Assembly (NCBI GenBank): GCA_022822005.1
Contig: JAJECO010000053.1
Span: forward strand, 1 to 64,000
DNA length: 64,000 bases
Direction: 5' to 3'
DNA from: Candidatus Poribacteria bacterium
GTDB taxonomy: Bacteria > Poribacteria > WGA-4E > PCPOR2b
Shown here: one piece after another, positions 46,239-55,237 of the stretch
How positions within the stretch are numbered: the first letter of the stretch is position 1
Layout of the letters: every line of letters starts with the position of its first letter
The notes under the pieces: model-generated
The model's input: only the letters and a program-made list of their open reading frames with translations
Database searches by the model: none
Told to the model about the DNA's origin: nothing
Translations under genes and position numbers: made by a program

Positions 46239-47966
46239 GTGATGCAGCGAAAATCTCCCGGCAGTTGGAATCACTTTTGGCGTGAACCGTCCCTCTTGAT
46301 CACCGTCATTCTCATCAATACGTTGCTCGTCCTGTTCGTGGTGTTTCCGCTGTTTCAGGTTTTCAAAACCTGTTTCATCGCGAAAGATGGATCAACGCTC
46401 ACTCTGAAGTATGCCTGGGAACTGTTTTCCAAATCGTACAATCGACAGCCGCTCTATAACAGTATCGTCTTGGGCATCTGCGTCGCGTTGCTCGGCACAA
46501 TCGTCGGATTCGCCTGCGCGTACGCCGTCACAAAGACGGATATGCGGTTCAAACGATTCCTCCAAGCTACTACCCTCTTGCCGATTATCTCCCCACCTTT
46601 TGTTATCGCCCTCTCCGCAATTCTCCTGTTTGGCAGAAACGGCATAATCACCCGGAAACTGCTCCTCGACAGGCTCGGCATCGATCTCTACGCAGCAGGT
46701 TTCGACATCTATGGCTTGACGGGCTTGGTCGTCGTTGAAACGCTCGCCTACTTCCCGACTGCCTATCTGGTATTGGTCGGTGCGTTGTCGTCCATTGAGC
46801 CGGCGTTGGAAGAAGCCGCATCAAATCTCGGTGCGTCCCGGTGGAAGGTCTTCCGAACCGTTACCGTGCCGCTTGCACTGCCGGGAATTGCGAGCGCGAT
46901 GCTGCTGCTGTTTATCGAGTCAATGGCAGATTTTGGGAATCCGCTTATCTTGGCGGGCCGATTCAACGTCCTTTCCGTGCAGGCGTATCTCCAGATCACC
47001 GGCAACGATAACCTTCCCGGCGGTGCAACACTGGCGATGGCACTGCTACTTCCCTCTCTCGCTGTCTACTTCTTACAACACTATCTCCTACGTCAACGGG
47101 CCTTTGTCGCAGTGACAGGAAGGGCTTCAGGAGCGGGGATGCAAACGACTGATAAGCGGATACACTATCCGCTGATAGCTATCTGTTGGGGAGCGGTGGG
47201 ATGTGTCTTTCTTTTTTACGGATTGGTCCTGGTTGGATCATTCACCAGGTTGTGGGGTGTCGATTATTCACTGACGTTGAACAACTACGCCGAAGCCTTT
47301 CGACTGGGAGCGGATTATATCTGGGACTCTCTCCTGCTCGCGGCGATTGCCACGCCGTTAACTGGACTGCTGGGAATGGTCGTTGCCTATATAGTTAAGC
47401 GAAAGCAGTTTGTGGGGCGCAGGCTGACGGATATAACATCCATGTTAAGTTTTGCTGTGCCGGGGACGGTGGTCGGCATCGGCTACATCCTCGCCTTTAA
47501 CCAGCCACCGCTTATGTTGAGAGGAACAGCGGCCATTATTGTGGTGCTGTTTATCTTCCGTAATATGCCCGTCGGGATCCGTGCTGCCGCCGCCTCGTTG
47601 GACCAAATAGATTCATCGCTGGAGGAGGCGTCGACCAATTTGGGGGCGGGCAGCCTGACCACGTTTCGTCGGATCCTGTTGCCGCTGATCGCGCCGGCGT
47701 TTTTTGCTGGGCTCGCCTACAGTTTCGTCCGATGTATGACCGCTATCAGTGCGGTGATTTTTGTTGTCTCCGGTCAGTGGAATCTGATTACCGTGGCAAT
47801 TCTGGGGTTTGTTGAAAACAGCGACTTCTCACAGGCGGCTGCGCTCTCGATTATCCTCATCGCCTTTGTAATGGCTGCTTTGGGACTGATTCAGCTTATG
47901 TTGACGTTGGTTTTCAAGCGGCGTATCACGGATTTTTTTGGATATGCAAACACATCTTGCAACTAA
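46239..47966 (+). CDS. FbpB-type iron/thiamine ABC transporter permease (two-domain)
   Basis: A 575-residue protein with about 12 membrane segments, in two homologous halves, each with the EAA loop. The loop segments are EEAASNLGASRWKVFRTVTVPL near residue 190 and EEASTNLGAGSLTTFRRILLPL near 465. This is the architecture of Fe(III)/sulfate/thiamine-type permeases such as FbpB. The binding protein and ATPase genes are absent on both sides, so it is either an orphan or its partners lie elsewhere. The start could be GTG 46239 or ATG 46242. The region beyond its stop is the peptide island. Confidence 0.85.
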   Translation: MMQRKSPGSWNHFWREPSLLITVILINTLLVLFVVFPLFQVFKTCFIAKDGSTLTLKYAWELFSKSYNRQPLYNSIVLGICVALLGTIVGFACAYAVTKTDMRFKRFLQATTLLPIISPPFVIALSAILLFGRNGIITRKLLLDRLGIDLYAAGFDIYGLTGLVVVETLAYFPTAYLVLVGALSSIEPALEEAASNLGASRWKVFRTVTVPLALPGIASAMLLLFIESMADFGNPLILAGRFNVLSVQAYLQITGNDNLPGGATLAMALLLPSLAVYFLQHYLLRQRAFVAVTGRASGAGMQTTDKRIHYPLIAICWGAVGCVFLFYGLVLVGSFTRLWGVDYSLTLNNYAEAFRLGADYIWDSLLLAAIATPLTGLLGMVVAYIVKRKQFVGRRLTDITSMLSFAVPGTVVGIGYILAFNQPPLMLRGTAAIIVVLFIFRNMPVGIRAAAASLDQIDSSLEEASTNLGAGSLTTFRRILLPLIAPAFFAGLAYSFVRCMTAISAVIFVVSGQWNLITVAILGFVENSDFSQAAALSIILIAFVMAALGLIQLMLTLVFKRRITDFFGYANTSCN

Positions 47967-48052
47967 TTTGAAGCGTTATGACATATTATGTCAAAACGCC
48001 CCCAAAGGTGGTTGGTATTTTTATTAGTTGGATGGTATTTTATAATTGCGAC

Positions 48053-48250
48053 TAGGATAGATAGTGATGATGGCTCCGAGTTACCGCTCGGAACCACCTT
48101 GGAGCAACACGAGACACAACCTCGAATCGCTTCGTCATTGTTAGGCATTCACCCTAACAATTATTTTATAGTATAACCCTTTTAGCCACCTGTTTCTACC
48201 TAAAACAAAGGGCGGCGCGATTCGGGATTACCCATCATGCAGCCCTTTTT
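48053..48250 (+). ncRNA. Leader RNA candidate, copy 1, upstream of a secreted-peptide gene
   Basis: A TATAAT lies at 48041-48046. From about 48053 to the T-run at 48250 lies a conserved stretch shared with 50452-50629. Shared features are a CTCCGAG hairpin, the segment CGAATCGCTTCGTCATTGTT, a TGTTAGG/CCTAACA stem, an ATAGTATA tract and a terminator-like stem (GGGCGGC/GCAGCCC plus T5). The copies differ in stem positions but keep the hairpins. No protein frame is conserved here. It may be a regulatory leader, a small RNA or an attenuator. Confidence 0.5.
48210..48250 (+). terminator. Terminator-like hairpin before the first secreted-peptide gene
   Basis: GGGCGGC (48210-48216) pairs with GCAGCCC (48239-48245), with one mismatch and a 22-base loop, followed by TTTTT. 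It lies 41 bases before the ATG at 48291, so it would end the leader unless read through. The paired second copy (50596-50629) has a perfect stem. Confidence 0.5.
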
Positions 48251-48290
48251 CTGTTTTTAGATGGAAACATGGCACTTCAGGAGAGAAACG

Positions 48291-48632
48291 ATGTCAGTAA
48301 AAGAACGCTTCAAAACGTTAGTGTTTGCTGTTAGCCTATTGTCCATCGGGCTTGTTGGTAATTTCCCCCCGCTTTTGTTTGAGGCTGAAGCAGGCGCAGA
48401 CAAGAAGATAAAGATAACAAATTATATAAAATATTACGATGCAGGTGGTGCTTACTGCGCTAACCTTTCAGGACCTGTAACCTCCTATGAGCCAGTTGTA
48501 TACAACGGATATGGTCACTACTATAACTACCATATCATGGGTCAATCAGGACACCCCAATGGTCACGGTTATTTGGTCACGGGAAAATACGTGATTCATA
48601 CTGTTTTTAACATTTCCAGTTGTTATACTTAA
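48291..48632 (+). CDS. Small secreted Gly/Tyr/His-rich protein
   Basis: A 113-residue protein with a signal peptide (about 1-35, ending FEAEAGA) and a mature part rich in Tyr, Gly and His, with two cysteines (in GGAYCANLSG and at the end, SSCYT). The strand-turn-strand pattern (YNGYGHYYNYHIMG, PNGHGYLVTGKY) suggests an all-beta mini-domain, possibly metal-binding. AGGAGAG precedes the ATG at 48291, so the longer frame from 48261 is not used. It follows leader copy 1. No known family is recognised. The position equals that of the six-cysteine peptide in the second copy. Confidence 0.7.
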   Translation: MSVKERFKTLVFAVSLLSIGLVGNFPPLLFEAEAGADKKIKITNYIKYYDAGGAYCANLSGPVTSYEPVVYNGYGHYYNYHIMGQSGHPNGHGYLVTGKYVIHTVFNISSCYT

Positions 48633-48661
48633 GCACTTTAGCATCGTTAGAAAGATAGGCA

Positions 48662-48697
48662 GCCCAGCCTCTACCAGCGTCTCCGTAGAGGCTGGGC
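48662..48697. repeat. 13-bp perfect stem-loop
   Basis: GCCCAGCCTCTAC (48662-48674) and GTAGAGGCTGGGC (48685-48697) form a 13-bp perfect stem over a 10-base loop. There is no T-run. It lies 30 bases after the peptide stop and may end or stabilise that transcript. Confidence 0.65.
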
Positions 48698-48797
48698 GTC
48701 AGACGTCTGCCGTCACAGCGGTAAAATCTTCAAACGAGAATAGTATGTGACAAGGGGAAACACACATTTCAGCGATTTCAGAAGGGACGGTATTTTG

Positions 48798-49871
48798 ATG
48801 CGAAAGTTTATTCTATTTATGTCAGTGATAGTCGTTCTAATAGCAGGCGGGATTTTCTACTTAAACGAGGAAAAAAAGCACTTTATAGAAAATCTACTTC
48901 AATCCCCTGTAGCTGTAAACCAATCTATTGACAAATCCTCCTCATCGGGAAATGAAATGTTTGAAGTGGATGGGGAGAGATTCATTCCTGAAGACGGCGT
49001 GCATGAGACACTTCCACAGGAGCAGACCGCAACAGCAGAAAAAACGTCTTCAGAAACGCCCTCTCCGGACGAGAAAGCGGACGAGAAAGCAGATTTTGTC
49101 CGCGACCAATGGATTGAAATGTTTGGAGACATTCCAGAGGTCCATGCCGCCTCCGAATACATGCGAAAAATATACAAGAAGGAACGACATATACCCATTA
49201 ATGAAGTGATTTCTGGCTTAGAAGCGTCACATTACCTTTTCCCAAACGGTGGGCATGGAATACTCTTGGAAATGCGAAAATCTCAGAAAGCACTGGGGAT
49301 CCACGAGGTTGAGTTCATATATGAGGAGGATCCTGAGAATGTAAGGTATGCGGAGAATCTTGAGGTGATTTATTTAAATTCCCCTGAGCCTTTTCCGTCC
49401 CATCCCCCTGCATCTGATAGTGTTTCTTCAGGAAGTATTGATGAGGATATAGATGTTCTGCCGGCTCGCTCTGAGGGAACCCCTGTAATGCCAGAATCTA
49501 AGACCTCCGTCATGTCTGAGCATGTTCACCACGAAGATGGGCATGCACACGAAACACAAACTATCAAAACACCTGCGCCGGCAGCTGCTAAAGGCGTTGA
49601 AGCAGACGGTTGGGTGGGATTATCGTCTGAACAACGGGAGCGGGCGAAACGGTTATTTGACGAATATGGCACAACGGAGGGGCTTCGTCGGTTGAAGGAG
49701 TCTGACCCGGAAGCGGCGCGGCGGTTTGAGTCCGATCCCGATTCCATCGAGGATGCCGAGAATCGGCATAAATCGAGATCCCGACGAGTCGGGACAGGGC
49801 GGGAGCGTCGTCCGGTGCCTTCCCGTGATGTGCCTGATGGGGGGCAACCGGAATCAGGATCAAAAGATTAA
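48798..49871 (+). CDS. Membrane-anchored protein with C-terminal EGLRRL motif
   Basis: A 357-residue protein with an N-terminal membrane anchor (residues 5-22) and a long extracytoplasmic part. A structured section (about 85-195: PEVHAASEYMRKIYKK...) is followed by a low-complexity His/Glu/Pro region with HVHHEDGHAHE near 255. The C-terminal domain (about 285-325) has the pattern LFDEYGTTEGLRRLKESDPE. The same domain is seen in the 51877 protein. The last 30 residues contain a palindromic repeat (TCCCGAC-ga-GTCGGGA, 49779-49794) read in frame, so the true end may have been altered. ATG 48798 is used; GTG 48747 is possible. Confidence 0.68.
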   Translation: MRKFILFMSVIVVLIAGGIFYLNEEKKHFIENLLQSPVAVNQSIDKSSSSGNEMFEVDGERFIPEDGVHETLPQEQTATAEKTSSETPSPDEKADEKADFVRDQWIEMFGDIPEVHAASEYMRKIYKKERHIPINEVISGLEASHYLFPNGGHGILLEMRKSQKALGIHEVEFIYEEDPENVRYAENLEVIYLNSPEPFPSHPPASDSVSSGSIDEDIDVLPARSEGTPVMPESKTSVMSEHVHHEDGHAHETQTIKTPAPAAAKGVEADGWVGLSSEQRERAKRLFDEYGTTEGLRRLKESDPEAARRFESDPDSIEDAENRHKSRSRRVGTGRERRPVPSRDVPDGGQPESGSKD

Positions 49872-49922
49872 CGCGATTTTCAGGATTAAGCGGTTGTTAC
49901 CCAAGCTATCCTGATACAGACT

Positions 49923-49965
49923 GGGGGTATATCTTCGGAATTTGAAGAATATGCCCCCTTTTTTT
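49923..49965 (+). terminator. Intrinsic terminator, copy 1
   Basis: GGGGGTATATCTTC (49923-49936) pairs with GAAGAATATGCCCCC (49944-49958) with one bulge, and is followed by seven T. It is the same kind of element as 54125-54163. Confidence 0.82.
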
Positions 49966-49981
49966 ATGTCTCGTCCCGCGT

Positions 49982-50012
49982 AGCAAGGATTTCGATTCGA
50001 TCGAAGTTTGCT
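49982..50012. repeat. Conserved post-terminator hairpin, copy 1
   Basis: AGCAA/TTGCT (49982-49986/50008-50012) surrounds TTTCGAT/ATCGAAG (49990-49996/50000-50006) with a TCG loop. The copy at 54180-54210 has the same shape but T-A is replaced by C-G at 49992/50004, a compensatory change. Confidence 0.55.
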
Positions 50013-50307
50013 CTTAGGGGTGGTGAATAGTTTTCCGATGTGTGCTGTAAAAAAGAGTAAGACGAGGACAGAAGCAGCTATCTGAGAGCGGTATGTCGGA
50101 GGGGCGAAAGTAGAGGTTCACAAGAGGGAAAATTCTTAAGTATCGGAAAGGCTGATATAAAAAGAAAGTGCAATACACGAAGCAAAACCGCAGCTGTTGA
50201 AAGTGAGGGGCGGGGTGGAAGAGGGGAGGGAAAATCTCAGATTCTCGGTACGGAGATTGGCTCAATTCGTCAAATCTCAAAAACAATGAAAAATTTATCA
50301 AAGTATT
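50013..50307. other. 295-bp purine-rich gap, no gene
   Basis: The + strand is rich in A and G. The opposite strand has a 95-codon frame (50014-50301), but it has no ribosome site and an F/P/S-rich translation typical of a purine-rich antisense; I do not accept it. The segment GGTGAA(T/C)AGTTTTCCGATGTG near 50021-50040 is shared with 54220-54239. Confidence 0.4.
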
Positions 50308-50344
50308 TTCTTCAACTTGAAACTATTTGTTTCAAGTTGAAGAA
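50308..50344. repeat. 16-bp perfect stem-loop upstream of leader copy 2
   Basis: TTCTTCAACTTGAAAC (50308-50323) and GTTTCAAGTTGAAGAA (50329-50344) form a 16-bp perfect stem with a TATTT loop. It lies directly before the promoter at 50352 and may be an operator or a two-way terminator. Confidence 0.7.
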
Positions 50345-50351
50345 TTCAAAT

Positions 50352-50380
50352 TTGCAGCTGCACATTTTTTGTTGTATAAT
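50352..50380 (+). promoter_or_regulatory. Promoter of leader copy 2
   Basis: TTGCAG (50352-50357) and a perfect TATAAT (50375-50380) are 17 bases apart. Transcription would start near 50387. Confidence 0.6.
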
Positions 50381-50386
50381 CGGACA

Positions 50387-50629
50387 TTAGAAAGGAAAAT
50401 GGTCCAGTGGGCCGGTTTCCAGCTTTCTAATCAAGGATATTCCTTGAGTTTTGTGGGAGCTCCGAGTTGCCGCTCGAAGCCCCCTGAAGCAACACGAGAC
50501 ACAACCTCGAATCGCTTCGTCATTGTTAGGGTGAACGCCTAACAATTGTTTGATAGTATACCCTTTGATGCCATTCGTTTCAATCGAAAACAAGGGGGCT
50601 GCGCGATTTGAGGACGCAGCCCTTTTTTT
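50387..50629 (+). ncRNA. Leader RNA candidate, copy 2
   Basis: This stretch from the promoter to the terminator (50596-50629) holds the conserved block 50462-50570 shared with copy 1. The stem TGTTAGG/CCTAACA reappears (50525-50545), but its loop GTGAACG resembles the reverse complement of the copy-1 loop (CATTCAC), as if the hairpin were inverted. The transcript should end 38 bases before the peptide ATG, unless read through. Confidence 0.5.
50596..50629 (+). terminator. Terminator before the second secreted-peptide gene
   Basis: GGGCTGCG (50596-50603) pairs perfectly with CGCAGCCC (50615-50622) over an 11-base loop, then seven T. It ends leader copy 2 and is 38 bases upstream of the ATG at 50668, consistent with attenuation or with a free small RNA. 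Confidence 0.85.
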
Positions 50630-50667
50630 GTTTTCGGTCGGGACGGTGGTAATGAGGAGATTTGAGT

Positions 50668-50913
50668 ATGTTAAGTTTTCGGCGTTTTATAGCAATGTTT
50701 CTGATTATCGCGTTAGTCGCTGTCGTTTTCTATGTACAAGAGGTTAAGGCGGATCCTTGTGAAGACGCCATGGATTTGTGTAAATCATATTGGGATTTTG
50801 CAGATCTCGTATGTGACCATTATGGCCATTCCTCCCTTACGTGTTTAGCGGCAATAGATTATACGATTCAAGTCTGTGCATACTATATTGCTCGGCATTG
50901 TAATACAGCATAA
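50668..50913 (+). CDS. Six-cysteine small secreted peptide, copy A
   Basis: An 81-residue precursor with a signal peptide (about 1-28, ending VKA) and a mature part of about 53 residues. Its cysteine spacing is C-x6-C-x10-C-x9-C-x10-C-x7-C, nearly the same as in the 53316 peptide. Shared residues include LC, VCD-x-YG and CAY. Three disulfides are likely, giving a small stable fold. No known family is recognised. GAGGAG precedes ATG 50668. Its stop TAA is formed by the left end of the IS at 50911; precise loss of the IS would restore TAG, so the protein end is unchanged. Confidence 0.78.
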   Translation: MLSFRRFIAMFLIIALVAVVFYVQEVKADPCEDAMDLCKSYWDFADLVCDHYGHSSLTCLAAIDYTIQVCAYYIARHCNTA

Positions 50914-51837
50914 CGCAAGTTGCTAGTGGATTATTTAATAAAGAGTGTAATCATAGTAGTAATTAGAAACAAAACCACCTTAATCTCAAATCCAGCGGCA
51001 GTGACCGCATGAATAGCACGTGGCATGCGTTGGGTGATTAGACTATTTGTAACCTCCACCTGCTTCCTGCGGTGATGGTGTAGGTAAACTTTCCATGGTG
51101 GATATTGCCGCTTACTGTTTCTCTTACGCAACGGTTTGAGCAGGATGCCAGCTTCAGTCAACGCATCTTCAATCCCATAATTACAGTAGGCTTTATCTGC
51201 ATAAACAACCGCTCCGTGAGGTAAGTCAAAAGGATAACACCGCACCCCCCCAACATCGGCAAAGCTACCCGGTGTTAAGAAAAACTCAACCGGTACACCA
51301 CTTTCAGTGACCATCAGATGCAGTTTGAGTCCATAGAAGTATCTACGTTTACTGGGTATCACCCCTCGCCACACTTCACCTTGATACCGTTTGGCACCAG
51401 AGATACGAATGGGGTCACATGCTGGGACGGGATAAGAGTCAATCGCATAGATTTGATGCGAGTTTTGTGCTTTACAGTCTGTGGCAAGGGAGTCAAAAAG
51501 TGTCTGAAACATCGGGGCAATTTGGTGGAGTCTTCGGTTGAATCGTGCTTTACTGAGCATATTAGGAATATACCCCTGTTCTTTGAGGACCTGGCGTGCC
51601 GTCTGTTGATTGCCACCGAACAGTTCTACTGCTACTAATGCCGTTGTCATCACTTCGGCGGCAGACATTTTGGTTCGTGGGTCATCTTGGTATCCCTGTT
51701 GAATTAACAGATCGTCACAAAGCGTATAAAATACTACAATTACTAAGTCCATGGGATTCTCCTGTTTATCAGTGTTGTTATGGATAACAAACACTCTAAC
51801 GGAAATTCCATGGATATTCAAATAGCAACTTGCGTTA
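50911..51837. mobile_element. IS982-like insertion sequence (927 bp)
   Basis: The ends are perfect 15-bp inverted repeats TAACGCAAGTTGCTA (50911-50925) and TAGCAACTTGCGTTA (51823-51837). They begin with TA, which may be the target duplication. The single gene inside is a DDE transposase. The IS appears complete and recent, since both ends are intact. The 167-bp element at 5494-5660 shares these ends. Confidence 0.85.
50931..51752 (-). CDS. IS982-family-like DDE transposase
   Basis: A 273-residue transposase. The first catalytic Asp is in YAIDSYPVPACDPIR (near residue 120), the second likely in ADKAYCNYG (near 197), and the final Glu in the Lys/Glu-rich C-terminal region. The pattern GVIPSKRRYFYGLKLHLMVTESG fits IS982-type enzymes. 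I use ATG 51752, preceded by AGGAGA, instead of the longer frame from 51821. The frame is intact, so the element may be active. IS5-type remains an alternative label. Confidence 0.82.
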   Translation of the reverse strand: MDLVIVVFYTLCDDLLIQQGYQDDPRTKMSAAEVMTTALVAVELFGGNQQTARQVLKEQGYIPNMLSKARFNRRLHQIAPMFQTLFDSLATDCKAQNSHQIYAIDSYPVPACDPIRISGAKRYQGEVWRGVIPSKRRYFYGLKLHLMVTESGVPVEFFLTPGSFADVGGVRCYPFDLPHGAVVYADKAYCNYGIEDALTEAGILLKPLRKRNSKRQYPPWKVYLHHHRRKQVEVTNSLITQRMPRAIHAVTAAGFEIKVVLFLITTMITLFIK

Positions 51838-51876
51838 GCATAGTAGACTGATGAGTCACAATAGGAGCGTCAAAGC

Positions 51877-53010
51877 ATGAAAAAAAAGTGTTTTTATATG
51901 GGTGGCACCTTGTTGATAGGGGTAATTGTTTGTGTATCGGTGTTTTTTTTACTTCGAGAGCGCAAGGGAAATGAGCTTCAGCGCCAACTTCCCCCCACTA
52001 CCGTAAGGCATCGGAATAGGGAGGCAAGCCCAAATAAAAACCTCCCACAACAGGGAAAAAACCCTGATGCCCGCCCGATTCCTATTGAGAAAATCATACA
52101 GCAAAACAAAAGTCAGATGATGTCCATATTGAGCGAAAAACAACTCGCAAACCCTGAGATACAAAAACGGCTTGCGCTTATGGATTCGCCAGCGTACCGC
52201 GAATTTATGAAAGACGCTTATGCAACAGGACTGAATCAACGGAAAATGAACGACTTTTGGGAATCGCAAGGATTCAGAGTAAAACGGGAGTACCCTGAGA
52301 TGTTCCGTCATTACTTTCCCACCGGTGAACCAGAGGATTATGACCAGAAGATGCGTCTAAAGATAGCGGAGATGTTTCTCACCCAAGAACCGGTAGACTT
52401 GACAGACCCACTAGCAGCAGCTCGCCAACGTCTTAACGTCGTTAGCGAGCTGATAAAAGACAAGACTGATGCGGTGTGGTATCTTGGACGTTTCGGTGAC
52501 GAGTGGGACGGTCCAATGCAAGGGGTTATGGGAGTGGAACAGGGAGAGGAGCGCAGAAACGCTGCAACTGAATGGATGATTGACATACAGCGAAACGCGG
52601 CGAGTATTGTAGAAGCCGCAGAGACAGCAGGCGTTGGTCAGGCATCAGCTCCTTCATGGGATATGTCGTCCGTCGTAGAAAGCTCCTCAGCACCTCATAG
52701 CGAAACGGAAGTGTCCACTACGGTTGACACATCAGAGCGGGATCCAATGACTGGCGCAGAGATTGAAAGATCGTTGACACGTCAGCCGCCCGATATACCC
52801 CAAAATCAAAAGCCTGATACACCCAGCGAGCTTCCAAGCAATTTGGAAGCTTCCCTGAAATCGCAGTTTTCATCAGAGCGTTTCGATCGGGCGATGTCTA
52901 CTTTAGAGCAGTATGGACCCGAAGAAGGGCTCCGCCGTCTTCGTCAAAGCGATCCAGACTTTGCCAAGCAAGTAGAACAACATCGTAACCGAGAGGAGGT
53001 TTCCAAATGA
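51877..53010 (+). CDS. Membrane-anchored protein with C-terminal EGLRRL motif
   Basis: A 377-residue protein with an N-terminal membrane anchor (residues 8-26) and a long extracytoplasmic part. A predicted helical domain (about 68-255) carries KRLALMDSPAYREFMKDAYATG and DYDQKMRLKIAEMFLTQEP. A low-complexity Ser/Thr/Pro linker leads to the C-terminal domain LEQYGPEEGLRRLRQSDPDF (about 342-361), which it shares with the 48798 protein. The middle domains are not obviously alike, so the shared tail may be a common binding module. Its stop overlaps the next gene's start (ATGA). GGAG precedes the ATG. Confidence 0.68.
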   Translation: MKKKCFYMGGTLLIGVIVCVSVFFLLRERKGNELQRQLPPTTVRHRNREASPNKNLPQQGKNPDARPIPIEKIIQQNKSQMMSILSEKQLANPEIQKRLALMDSPAYREFMKDAYATGLNQRKMNDFWESQGFRVKREYPEMFRHYFPTGEPEDYDQKMRLKIAEMFLTQEPVDLTDPLAAARQRLNVVSELIKDKTDAVWYLGRFGDEWDGPMQGVMGVEQGEERRNAATEWMIDIQRNAASIVEAAETAGVGQASAPSWDMSSVVESSSAPHSETEVSTTVDTSERDPMTGAEIERSLTRQPPDIPQNQKPDTPSELPSNLEASLKSQFSSERFDRAMSTLEQYGPEEGLRRLRQSDPDFAKQVEQHRNREEVSK

Positions 53011-53261
53011 AAGTGTTTATGATAACGTGGATAGCCCTCTGCTTCTTGGTGGTTGTGGGATTGTTCATTGCGTATGCAACAGACAACTTTCCCGGTGTCC
53101 CCGCTCCCCAATCCCGTTCCGAGTCGCCCGATAAATCGGGACAGGTTGGGTTGGAAACGGAGGAGGAGTGTTCGCCGTGTGAAGAAAATCTGAAACGGCT
53201 AAAAGAGGTAATAGAACAGGCAGAGCGCAAGCGACAAGCACGCAAAAGCCTAGCACAGTAA
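53007..53261 (+). CDS. Small single-pass membrane protein with CxxC
   Basis: An 84-residue protein. One membrane segment (residues 5-23) is followed by a short low-complexity linker, the pair ECSPCEEN and a basic helix (LKRLKEVIEQAERKRQARKS). The linker is encoded partly by a CCCGAT-aa-ATCGGG palindrome (53127-53140), a sign that a REP-type repeat inserted in frame. Its ATG overlaps the preceding stop by four bases, so it is translationally coupled. The CxxC could bind a metal or be redox active. No family is recognised. Confidence 0.62.
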   Translation: MKVFMITWIALCFLVVVGLFIAYATDNFPGVPAPQSRSESPDKSGQVGLETEEECSPCEENLKRLKEVIEQAERKRQARKSLAQ

Positions 53262-53315
53262 GATAGTCTTATTCTGTATTGACAGTTCCCTAACTACCAA
53301 AGAAAGGATTTTCAC

Positions 53316-53570
53316 ATGAAATCACGCAGTTTGAAAGTAGCGATTCTGATAATAGTGATTGTGTCAGTCGGATTTGGACTGTTGCCAAGTCCATTGGTTC
53401 AGGATGCCAACGCGGTAAGTTGTGACGATGCCATAAAATTATGTGAAGCGGATTGGAGGATGACAGATATCGTATGTGATTTTTATGGCTATGACTCATC
53501 GGTGTGTTACGCGGCAGTACTTGATACCTCTGAATATTGTGCATACCTATTTTGGTATTGTGAAGACTAA
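53316..53570 (+). CDS. Six-cysteine small secreted peptide, copy B
   Basis: An 84-residue precursor with a signal peptide (about 1-33, ending ANA) and a mature part of about 51 residues. The cysteine spacing is C-x6-C-x10-C-x9-C-x10-C-x6-C, like copy A at 50668 except for the last loop. Shared positions include DA(I/M), LC, D(I/L)VCD-x-YG, AA and CAY. AAAGGA precedes the ATG. It is encoded 54 bases after the CxxC membrane protein and 8 bases before the beta-repeat gene, so these are likely co-transcribed. Confidence 0.78.
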   Translation: MKSRSLKVAILIIVIVSVGFGLLPSPLVQDANAVSCDDAIKLCEADWRMTDIVCDFYGYDSSVCYAAVLDTSEYCAYLFWYCED

Positions 53571-53578
53571 GGCGAAAG

Positions 53579-54097
53579 ATGAATCATAAACAAAAGGCTT
53601 TATATACCCTATTTGGTGCTGCAATTATGCTGATGGGGTTAAGTGTAGGGTCACTCGTTTGTCCCCCGGTGATTGCACTAAAAGAAAAAGTCCTCGATGA
53701 GATTTACTGCACTGGACTAACGGTGATCAATTCGTCGGGTGAGCCTGCGATCGTCTTACGCACCGATGAAACATTGGGCAACGGGCTTGTTATCCACACG
53801 CCTCGGGGTGAGCCTGCGCTGCTCTTGGTCGCGGATGAAACCGCAAACAGTGTTGCTGTTACTGACAAGTCGGGTGAGCCTGCGGTTCTCTTACGCACCA
53901 GTGATTTGGCGAATCGTGTTATCGTCCGCAGTCCTTTAGGGAAAGATGGGGTTCGTTTATCTGCGGGTAAAGTTGCCAATCGGGTAACGGTATCCAATCC
54001 TGAGGAGACAAATGCGGTACAATTATACGCCGATGAAGTTGCCAATCGTGTTACCGTTCACAACCAAGTGGGTATCATCAGGTGGGAAGCACCGTAA
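53579..54097 (+). CDS. Membrane-anchored beta-repeat protein
   Basis: A 172-residue protein. A signal or anchor segment (about residues 9-34) precedes five 22-residue repeats (about 48-160) with the pattern V-x4-GEPA-x2-L-x5-AN-x-V. The DNA GGGTGAGCCTGCG occurs three times (about 53739, 53810 and 53870). The repeat period and V/L/G pattern suggest a right-handed beta-helix or beta-solenoid. It ends in a short tail, VGIIRWEAP. It follows copy B of the six-cysteine peptide by 8 bases and closes the island. Function is unknown; adhesive or scaffold roles are typical for such repeats. Confidence 0.68.
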   Translation: MNHKQKALYTLFGAAIMLMGLSVGSLVCPPVIALKEKVLDEIYCTGLTVINSSGEPAIVLRTDETLGNGLVIHTPRGEPALLLVADETANSVAVTDKSGEPAVLLRTSDLANRVIVRSPLGKDGVRLSAGKVANRVTVSNPEETNAVQLYADEVANRVTVHNQVGIIRWEAP

Positions 54098-54124
54098 CAG
54101 GCAATCTCAATCGAATCAGAATAG

Positions 54125-54163
54125 GGGTGTATCTTTGGATTTCTAAGGATACACCCTTTTTTT
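54125..54163 (+). terminator. Intrinsic terminator, copy 2
   Basis: GGGTGTATC (54125-54133) pairs perfectly with GATACACCC (54148-54156), followed by seven T. It ends the island operon. Confidence 0.85.
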
Positions 54164-54179
54164 ATGTCTCGTCCCGCGA

Positions 54180-54210
54180 AGCGAGGACTCCGATTCGATC
54201 GGAGCTTGCT
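54180..54210. repeat. Conserved post-terminator hairpin, copy 2
   Basis: AGCGA/TTGCT (with one G-T pair) surrounds CTCCGAT/ATCGGAG (54188-54194/54198-54204) with a TCG loop. It matches copy 1 (49982-50012) in shape, length and neighbours. The remaining gap up to 54472 shows no gene; TCCCGAC-ga-GTCGG lies at 54274-54287. Confidence 0.55.
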
Positions 54211-54472
54211 CTTGGCTTGGTGAACAGTTTTCCGATGTGTGCTGTGAACGATGGACGGGTTCCGTTTCGAGAATCCCGACGAGTCGGAATTAGTTTGCGG
54301 GGTGGATCACAATCTAACAGATCGTGCTACAAATTTGGGTGCGTATGGGTATCGAGCAATGTTGTGCCTTGAATTACGGATATGCCTCACATAAATGTCA
54401 GCATATCCTAACAACTTGTGTTAAAATATCATTCCTAATCCAATAATAACCCATTTCAGGAGGAGTATATTT

Positions 54473-55237
54473 ATGGCAGCATCACAATTGGCGGCACAAC
54501 TGTATACGGTCCGCGACTTCACAAACACCCCAGCCGAGATTGCCACAACAATGAAGAAAGTCAAGCAACTCGGTTATGACGCTGTGCAATGTTCGGCACT
54601 CGGCACTATTGATGCCCACGAATTGAAAAGAATCGCTGATGGCGAAGGCTTAACGATATGCGCTACACATACAGACTATGAGCGTATGCGTGACGAACCG
54701 CAAGCGGTCATCGACGAGCACAACCTCTGGGGCTGCAGACATGCAGCAATCGGTGGCTTGCCCCAAGCGTATCGCAGCGCTGAAGGCTACGCGAGGTTCG
54801 CCAAAGAAGCCTCGGAAGTTGCCAAACGGCTCGCGGAAGGCGGACTGACCTTTTCCTACCACAACCATAGTTTTGAATTGGAGAGGTTCAACGGGCGCAC
54901 GGGACTGGAAATCTTGTATGAGGATAGCGATCCAAAATATTTCAAGAGCGAACTCGATACATACTGGATCCAGCACGGCGGCGGCGATCCGGCGGCGTGG
55001 ATCCGAAAACTGAAAGGACGTGCGGATATCGTTCACCTAAAAGATATGGCTATGGACGATCGCACACAGTTGTTCGCAGAGGTCGGTGAGGGAAATCTGA
55101 ATTGGCCCGCAATCCTTGATGCCTGTAAAGAAGCTGGCACGGAATGGTATATCATTGAACAGGATACCTGCCAGCGCGATCCGTTCGAGAGCCTGGGGAT
55201 TAGCCTGAAGAATCTCAAGGCGATGGGGCTTCACTAA
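54473..55237 (+). CDS. Xylose-isomerase-like TIM-barrel sugar epimerase/isomerase
   Basis: A 254-residue AP-endonuclease-2-type TIM barrel (IolE/IolI/TIM-sugar isomerase group). Metal-binding residues are expected in FSYHNHSFELE (near residue 125) and in SELDTYWIQHGGGDP (near 160). A late VHLKDM (near 185) and WYIIEQD (near 223) complete the family set. It would isomerise or epimerise a keto sugar or inositol derivative. AGGAGG precedes the start. It is convergent with a Gfo/Idh oxidoreductase, a common pairing in polyol use. Confidence 0.88.
   Translation: MAASQLAAQLYTVRDFTNTPAEIATTMKKVKQLGYDAVQCSALGTIDAHELKRIADGEGLTICATHTDYERMRDEPQAVIDEHNLWGCRHAAIGGLPQAYRSAEGYARFAKEASEVAKRLAEGGLTFSYHNHSFELERFNGRTGLEILYEDSDPKYFKSELDTYWIQHGGGDPAAWIRKLKGRADIVHLKDMAMDDRTQLFAEVGEGNLNWPAILDACKEAGTEWYIIEQDTCQRDPFESLGISLKNLKAMGLH

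Follow-up and report, generated by a model that had tools for sequence, protein, structure and literature searches.

Paired RNA leaders before exported-protein genes in Candidatus Poribacteria, a candidate lineage-specific dual attenuator

What do two similar leaders, each closed by a terminator just before a small gene, do for the genes behind them? Such a pair lies in the window, a 64,000-nt stretch of a Candidatus Poribacteria contig analysed here as a whole. Poribacteria are uncultured symbionts, and to our knowledge gene regulation in them has hardly been studied. A full-text literature search found no relevant paper on Poribacteria riboswitches or small RNAs. A first, sequence-only reading had described the pair as homologous and as having the layout of an attenuator, a riboswitch-like switch or a small RNA. 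We consider it probable that the leaders are a lineage-specific cis-acting switch, a dual transcription and translation attenuator for genes of exported proteins. This view draws on four kinds of sequence evidence: homology, pairings that the copies maintain, promoters ahead of the leaders and the kind of gene found downstream.

The homology of the two leaders is clear, with 84% identity over 150 nt and 79% identity from −218 to −34 relative to the ATG. The blocks that the sequence-only reading had named were all found in both leaders: the CTCCGAG hairpin (P1 in Table 1), the block CGAATCGCTTCGTCATTGTT, the TGTTAGG/CCTAACA stem (P3), the tract ATAGTATA and, at the end of each leader, a terminator with a U-tract (48210-48250 and 50596-50629) that stops about 40 nt 5' of the ATG. 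The loops of P3 had looked inverted between the copies. The inversion is real and takes in the entire 25-nt hairpin, as P3 of copy 1 matches the opposite strand of copy 2 at 24 of 25 positions (96%), a mutation that inverts the hairpin and leaves its stem intact. The folding energy of both leaders beats that of all 200 dinucleotide shuffles (z = −4.5 for copy 1 and −4.0 for copy 2). R1, a covariance model for the core in which both copy sequences were included, finds them with E-values of about 1e-30 and 1e-25, the next match in the window having an E-value of 0.1.

Table 1. Positions of leader parts and first downstream genes for the two copies in the window
Copy	Feature	Position	Strand	Remarks
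1	Promoter region	48033..48059	+	TATAAT ~48041-48046, TAGGAT ~48053-48058; from comparison with L039/L087 upstream sequence
1	Hairpin P1	48071..48096	+	From folding
1	Hairpin P2	48101..48133	+	3' arm CTCGAATCGC (48121-48130), proposed switching strand
1	Hairpin P3	48137..48161	+	Inverted relative to copy 2
1	AGTATAA tract, then strand CCCTTTTAGCCA (putative antiterminator or anti-SD strand)	48170..48188	+	Near-invariant columns
1	AAAGGG and terminator hairpin, loop GCGATTCGGG (48217-48226), U-tract	48207..48250	+	
1	CATGGC...AGGAG, post-terminator strand and SD	48268..48283	+	Predicted pairing to leader weak, −8.0 kcal/mol
1	Gene behind leader 1	48291..48632	+	113-aa protein, N-terminal signal segment, no Pfam family
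2	Promoter TTTGCA-18-TATAAT	50351..50380	+	
2	Additional 5' stem-loops	50387..50447	+	Between promoter and P1; from folding
2	Hairpin P1	50455..50484	+	
2	Hairpin P2	50486..50518	+	3' arm CTCGAATCGC at 50506-50515
2	Hairpin P3	50522..50546	+	
2	AGTATA tract and strand CCCTTTGATGCCATT	50555..50575	+	Predicted partner: terminator AAGGG or SD region
2	AAGGG, terminator GGGCTGCG...CGCAGCCC, U-tract	50592..50629	+	
2	Terminator loop strand GCGATTTGAG	50603-50612	+	Complementary to P2 3' arm
2	GGTGGTAATGAGG and SD GAGGAG	50645..50659	+	Complementary to leader strand 50561-50575, −11.3 kcal/mol
2	Gene behind leader 2	50668..50913	+	81-aa secreted six-cysteine protein, heads apparent operon

Are these two leaders one of a kind? 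The genome itself (6.0 Mb) holds four full copies and one fragment, and R1 places the RNA in 12 of the 84 Poribacteria genomes examined, that is, in 11 besides this one. A scan of 85,000 species for the P2 pattern gave 51 loci, among which all R1 matches with E < 1e-3 belong to Poribacteria and the remaining matches, outside Poribacteria, reach at most 23 bits. The scan demands the exact P2 motif, so diverged relatives could escape it. The P2 pattern had no match in viral contigs. Neither the window nor nine homologous loci gave an Rfam 15 match at the gathering threshold. Below that level, the Rfam family isrD (RF01388) scored 28.6 bits on copy 2, under its curated cut-off of 37 and over the terminator only, and was treated as chance. 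The leaders thus appear to form an uncatalogued RNA family that is confined to sponge-associated Candidatus Poribacteria. Four copies with no gene behind them (L017, L122, L016 and L094) lie within shared units of about 500 nt that are 89-94% identical between genomes, and one pair of these units spans GTDB families. This sharing suggests mobility. A degenerate copy was also seen at 3040-3220 of L078, in which the P2 3' arm runs directly into GATTCGAG and makes one long hairpin before a terminator.

For the full analysis, 21 copies were parsed and aligned (alignment A3). They share one order of elements: a promoter, an optional 5' hairpin, P1, P2, P3, AGUAUAA with CCCUUU..GCCAUU, a small hairpin around GUUUCAAUC, and the terminator. 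The 3' part runs from AAAAGGGG into the terminator, with the loop GCGAUUCGRG, then the U-tract, about 20 nt ending in GAUGGC..AAGGAG, and the ATG; from terminator to start codon there are about 35-48 nt in most copies. P3 is optional, being missing in five of the 21. Sequence varies in the loops of the hairpins and on the 5' side of the internal loop in P2, and the terminator helix is 96% paired. RNAalifold recovered only P2 and part of P1 from alignment A2, a result limited by the poor alignment of P1 and P3.

The sequence-only reading needs transcription to start before the leaders. Promoters, as consensus matches, were placed 5' of the leaders and none 3' of the terminators. By consensus matching only, a sigma70-type promoter with at least 10 of 12 positions lies upstream of 19 of the 21 copies, and TTGACA with exactly 17-nt spacing precedes 17. 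The best promoter match of copy 1 is weak (9/12). Copy 1 lacks the TTGACA box of relatives; the ancestral −35 box was apparently lost by a deletion of about 24 nt, and the nearby TATAAT may be used instead. The motif ATAGTATAAC was considered as an internal promoter because it resembles −10 boxes, and was rejected, no matching −35 box being found by inspection. Directly 5' of the copy 2 promoter, at 50300-50344, there is a near-perfect inverted repeat (TCTTCAACTTGAAAC..GTTTCAAGTTGAAGA), possibly an operator or a terminator.

A covariation analysis of the 21 copies, of the kind that had been proposed as a check, revealed covariation in P2, P3 and the terminator, and in a new helix that would sequester the SD sequence. 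Together these helices make up what we call the OFF fold. In it, 92.6% of 747 cells are paired and 10 pairs changed on both sides. Its covariation score was 0.172 against 0.120 in shuffles, a value that none of 500 shuffles reached, and slid controls were exceeded as well. The SD helix shows co-changes between its two strands in several copies (for example GCUGUU/GAUGGC, GCUGUU/AAUAGC, GCUAUU/GAUAGC and GCCAUU/GAUGGC), and in one form a shifted solution, CCUUAAUG/CAUUAAGG. The copies' own SD helices average −11.8 kcal/mol against −10.7 kcal/mol for permuted partners (p = 0.013) and are 8.5 sd better than shuffled ones. The strands of this helix and of the ON helices described next were spotted by eye before testing, the tests used these 21 related copies, and their permutation p-values ignore kinship. 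Copy 1, L028 and L071a have only a weak form of the SD helix.

A second set of pairings, the ON fold, competes with the first. The P2 3' arm CUCGAAUCGC is complementary to the terminator loop GCGAUUCGRG, with 97.1% of cells paired and two compensated changes, and the two make a 10-bp duplex in 18 of the 21 copies; own partners are better than permuted ones (p = 0.001, kinship ignored). In genome G006, two copies with CUCGAAUCAC have GUGAUUCGAG, and a third copy, 400 nt from one of these, has the usual CUCGAAUCGC with GCGAUUCGAG. In L071b the loop strand is kept in a terminator stem that is otherwise rewritten, and in L047 the terminator-loop pairing is broken. The P2 3' arm hardly varies, so few independent changes back the antiterminator. 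The other ON helix, CCCUUU with AAAGGG, is present but shows no covariation across the 21 copies (p = 0.43), and taken together the ON structure stands out only marginally from shuffles (23 of 500 for pairing and 71 of 500 for covariation score). The ON helices are nested, and they are exclusive with P2, the terminator and the SD helix. Predicted energies of an RNA that ends before the terminator 3' arm average −48.6 kcal/mol for the P2 fold and −49.9 kcal/mol when this arm of P2 sits on the terminator loop instead; in RNA that includes the whole terminator, the OFF fold gains a lead of about 12.6 kcal/mol. Folds predicted to be nearly isoenergetic before the terminator 3' arm is made are as expected of a kinetically controlled attenuator. 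The attenuator or riboswitch-like part of the sequence-only reading is supported by the covariation and by the conserved alternative pairing of P2 3' arm and terminator loop.

Which genes would such a switch control? All 17 genes behind leaders encode an N-terminal hydrophobic segment (signal, lipoprotein or membrane), against 42% in the background, by a threshold set after viewing the 17 genes, of which the one behind the C77 copy may be a remnant. A Pfam scan of ten downstream proteins found mostly orphans; two lipoproteins with a Big_5-like domain and one coiled-coil protein stood above marginal. The downstream genes have no common pathway or domain. Copy 1 lies 3' of an ABC-transporter permease gene, an arrangement also found in three relatives. 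At this locus the leader is conserved, but homology ends at about the start codon or within reach of the signal peptide, and different species have different genes there.

From these elements the dual attenuator would work as follows. Transcription of the leader would start at the upstream promoter. In the OFF state P2 would form, the terminator would fold and RNA polymerase would stop; in RNA that is read through, the freed strand CCCUUU..GCCAUU would pair with GAUGGC..AAGGAG and hide the ribosome site. In the ON state the P2 3' arm would give up its P2 partner for the loop of the terminator as this emerges, and CCCUUU would pair with AAAGGG on the terminator 5' arm. These pairings would block termination, and since CCCUUU/AAAGGG consumes the strand that hides the SD sequence, the latter would be left exposed. 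We infer that the RNA can pass from one fold to the other in the cell, one of them being the default, and that the balance is set by a ligand, a protein or another RNA that binds P1/P2 or the tract AGUAUAACC. More tentatively, the leaders could represent a new class, a lineage-specific switch that senses a signal via P1/P2 and AGUAUAACC, in which one shared strand couples termination to SD sequestration, and which serves as a conserved cassette before fast-changing secreted proteins of sponge symbionts. If the shared strand sets both termination and SD exposure, this would be a compact dual-control design. A leader before orphan exported proteins would also mark a candidate host-interaction regulon and give a handle for finding the signal.

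The small RNA named in the first reading would be a stand-alone transcript of about 180 nt that acts in trans, the downstream genes being incidental. It would make use of the element's own promoter and terminator and of the multiple copies per genome, and the terminator loop and P2 3' arm could pair between separate RNA molecules. The copies C63, C77, G032 and G002:C14, which have no intact gene directly behind them, also suit it. However, gene-less copies keep an AAGGAG remnant and therefore look like broken units. An open reading frame follows 17 copies, in most cases with an RBS and with its ATG at the spacing given above. Past the terminator, the strand GAUGGC..AAGGAG is kept among copies and covaries with the leader. 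Given this conserved RBS region and its pairing to the leader, we regard the small RNA as unlikely.

A classical small-molecule riboswitch with P1-P2-P3 as aptamer would be a special case of the dual attenuator with another trigger. Transcription-terminating riboswitches such as those for SAM and TPP have a 5' leader, a terminator before the gene and one strand with alternative pairing, as the Poribacteria leaders do, and the mutually exclusive folds resemble transcriptional riboswitch expression platforms. The tract AGUAUAACC hardly varies between copies, and neither proposed fold pairs its AGUAUAA part. Unlike SAM and TPP riboswitches, however, the leaders match no Rfam model, show no evident conserved aptamer core and precede unrelated exported proteins; the variable loops and P2 internal loop and the dispensable P3 also speak against an aptamer. 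A compact pocket of conserved letters is not visible, and the genes behind are of mixed kinds; both points favour a protein or an RNA as the factor over a small molecule, and a small-molecule riboswitch seems improbable to us.

A further alternative is a constitutive leader, in which a leaky terminator or an mRNA-stabilising element acts with no switching. In full-length RNA the terminator state prevails, and covariation backs the ON structure weakly, both of which fit this alternative; it is nonetheless quite unlikely, in that the 10-nt complementarity of terminator loop and P2 3' arm survives a rewrite of the terminator stem and the SD helix covaries. A leader-peptide (ribosome-mediated) attenuator was rejected as very improbable, for the GTG-started frame that crosses P1/P2 and encodes similar peptides in several copies has no SD before its GTG by inspection, meets an early stop or shift in L021, L023, L046, L047 and L048, and spans a P2 loop whose length varies by 1 nt, so that a conserved short frame with an RBS was not found.

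The closest known parallel to the proposed dual attenuator is perhaps the B. subtilis trp leader, in which TRAP promotes termination and also a fold that covers the ribosome site, and both transcription and translation are controlled (PMC4347634). As in that leader, antiterminator and terminator of the proposed switch would be exclusive, and RNA refolding would also block the ribosome site. The Poribacteria leaders differ in that they share no sequence sign with the trp leader and precede other genes, that one proposed strand would be both antiterminator and anti-SD, and that the terminator loop would be the antiterminator target. A TRAP-type trp leader proper was rejected, there being by inspection no 9-11 NAG repeats, and secreted orphans in place of trp genes behind.

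Copy 2 heads an operon-like row in which the gene of the six-cysteine secreted peptide is followed by one for a membrane-anchored protein of 377 aa and by other small genes. The gene order at this locus is shared by the relatives L115 and L124, where no IS copy intervenes. In the window, that row is split by an element at 50914-51840, with ends CGCAAGTTGCTA/TAGCAACTTGCG and a transposase gene at 50931-51821 on the minus strand, inserted where the six-cysteine gene has its stop codon. The six-cysteine protein has a paralogue with 45% identity, encoded at 53316-53570 with no leader of this RNA family. The syntenic slot from the ABC permease to a 254-aa gene at 54473 (46239-54473) keeps the leader, and its small secreted genes vary by species. 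Two membrane-anchored proteins, encoded at 48798-49871 and 51877-53010, have a common C-terminal motif of the EGLRRLKESDPEAARRFESDP type.
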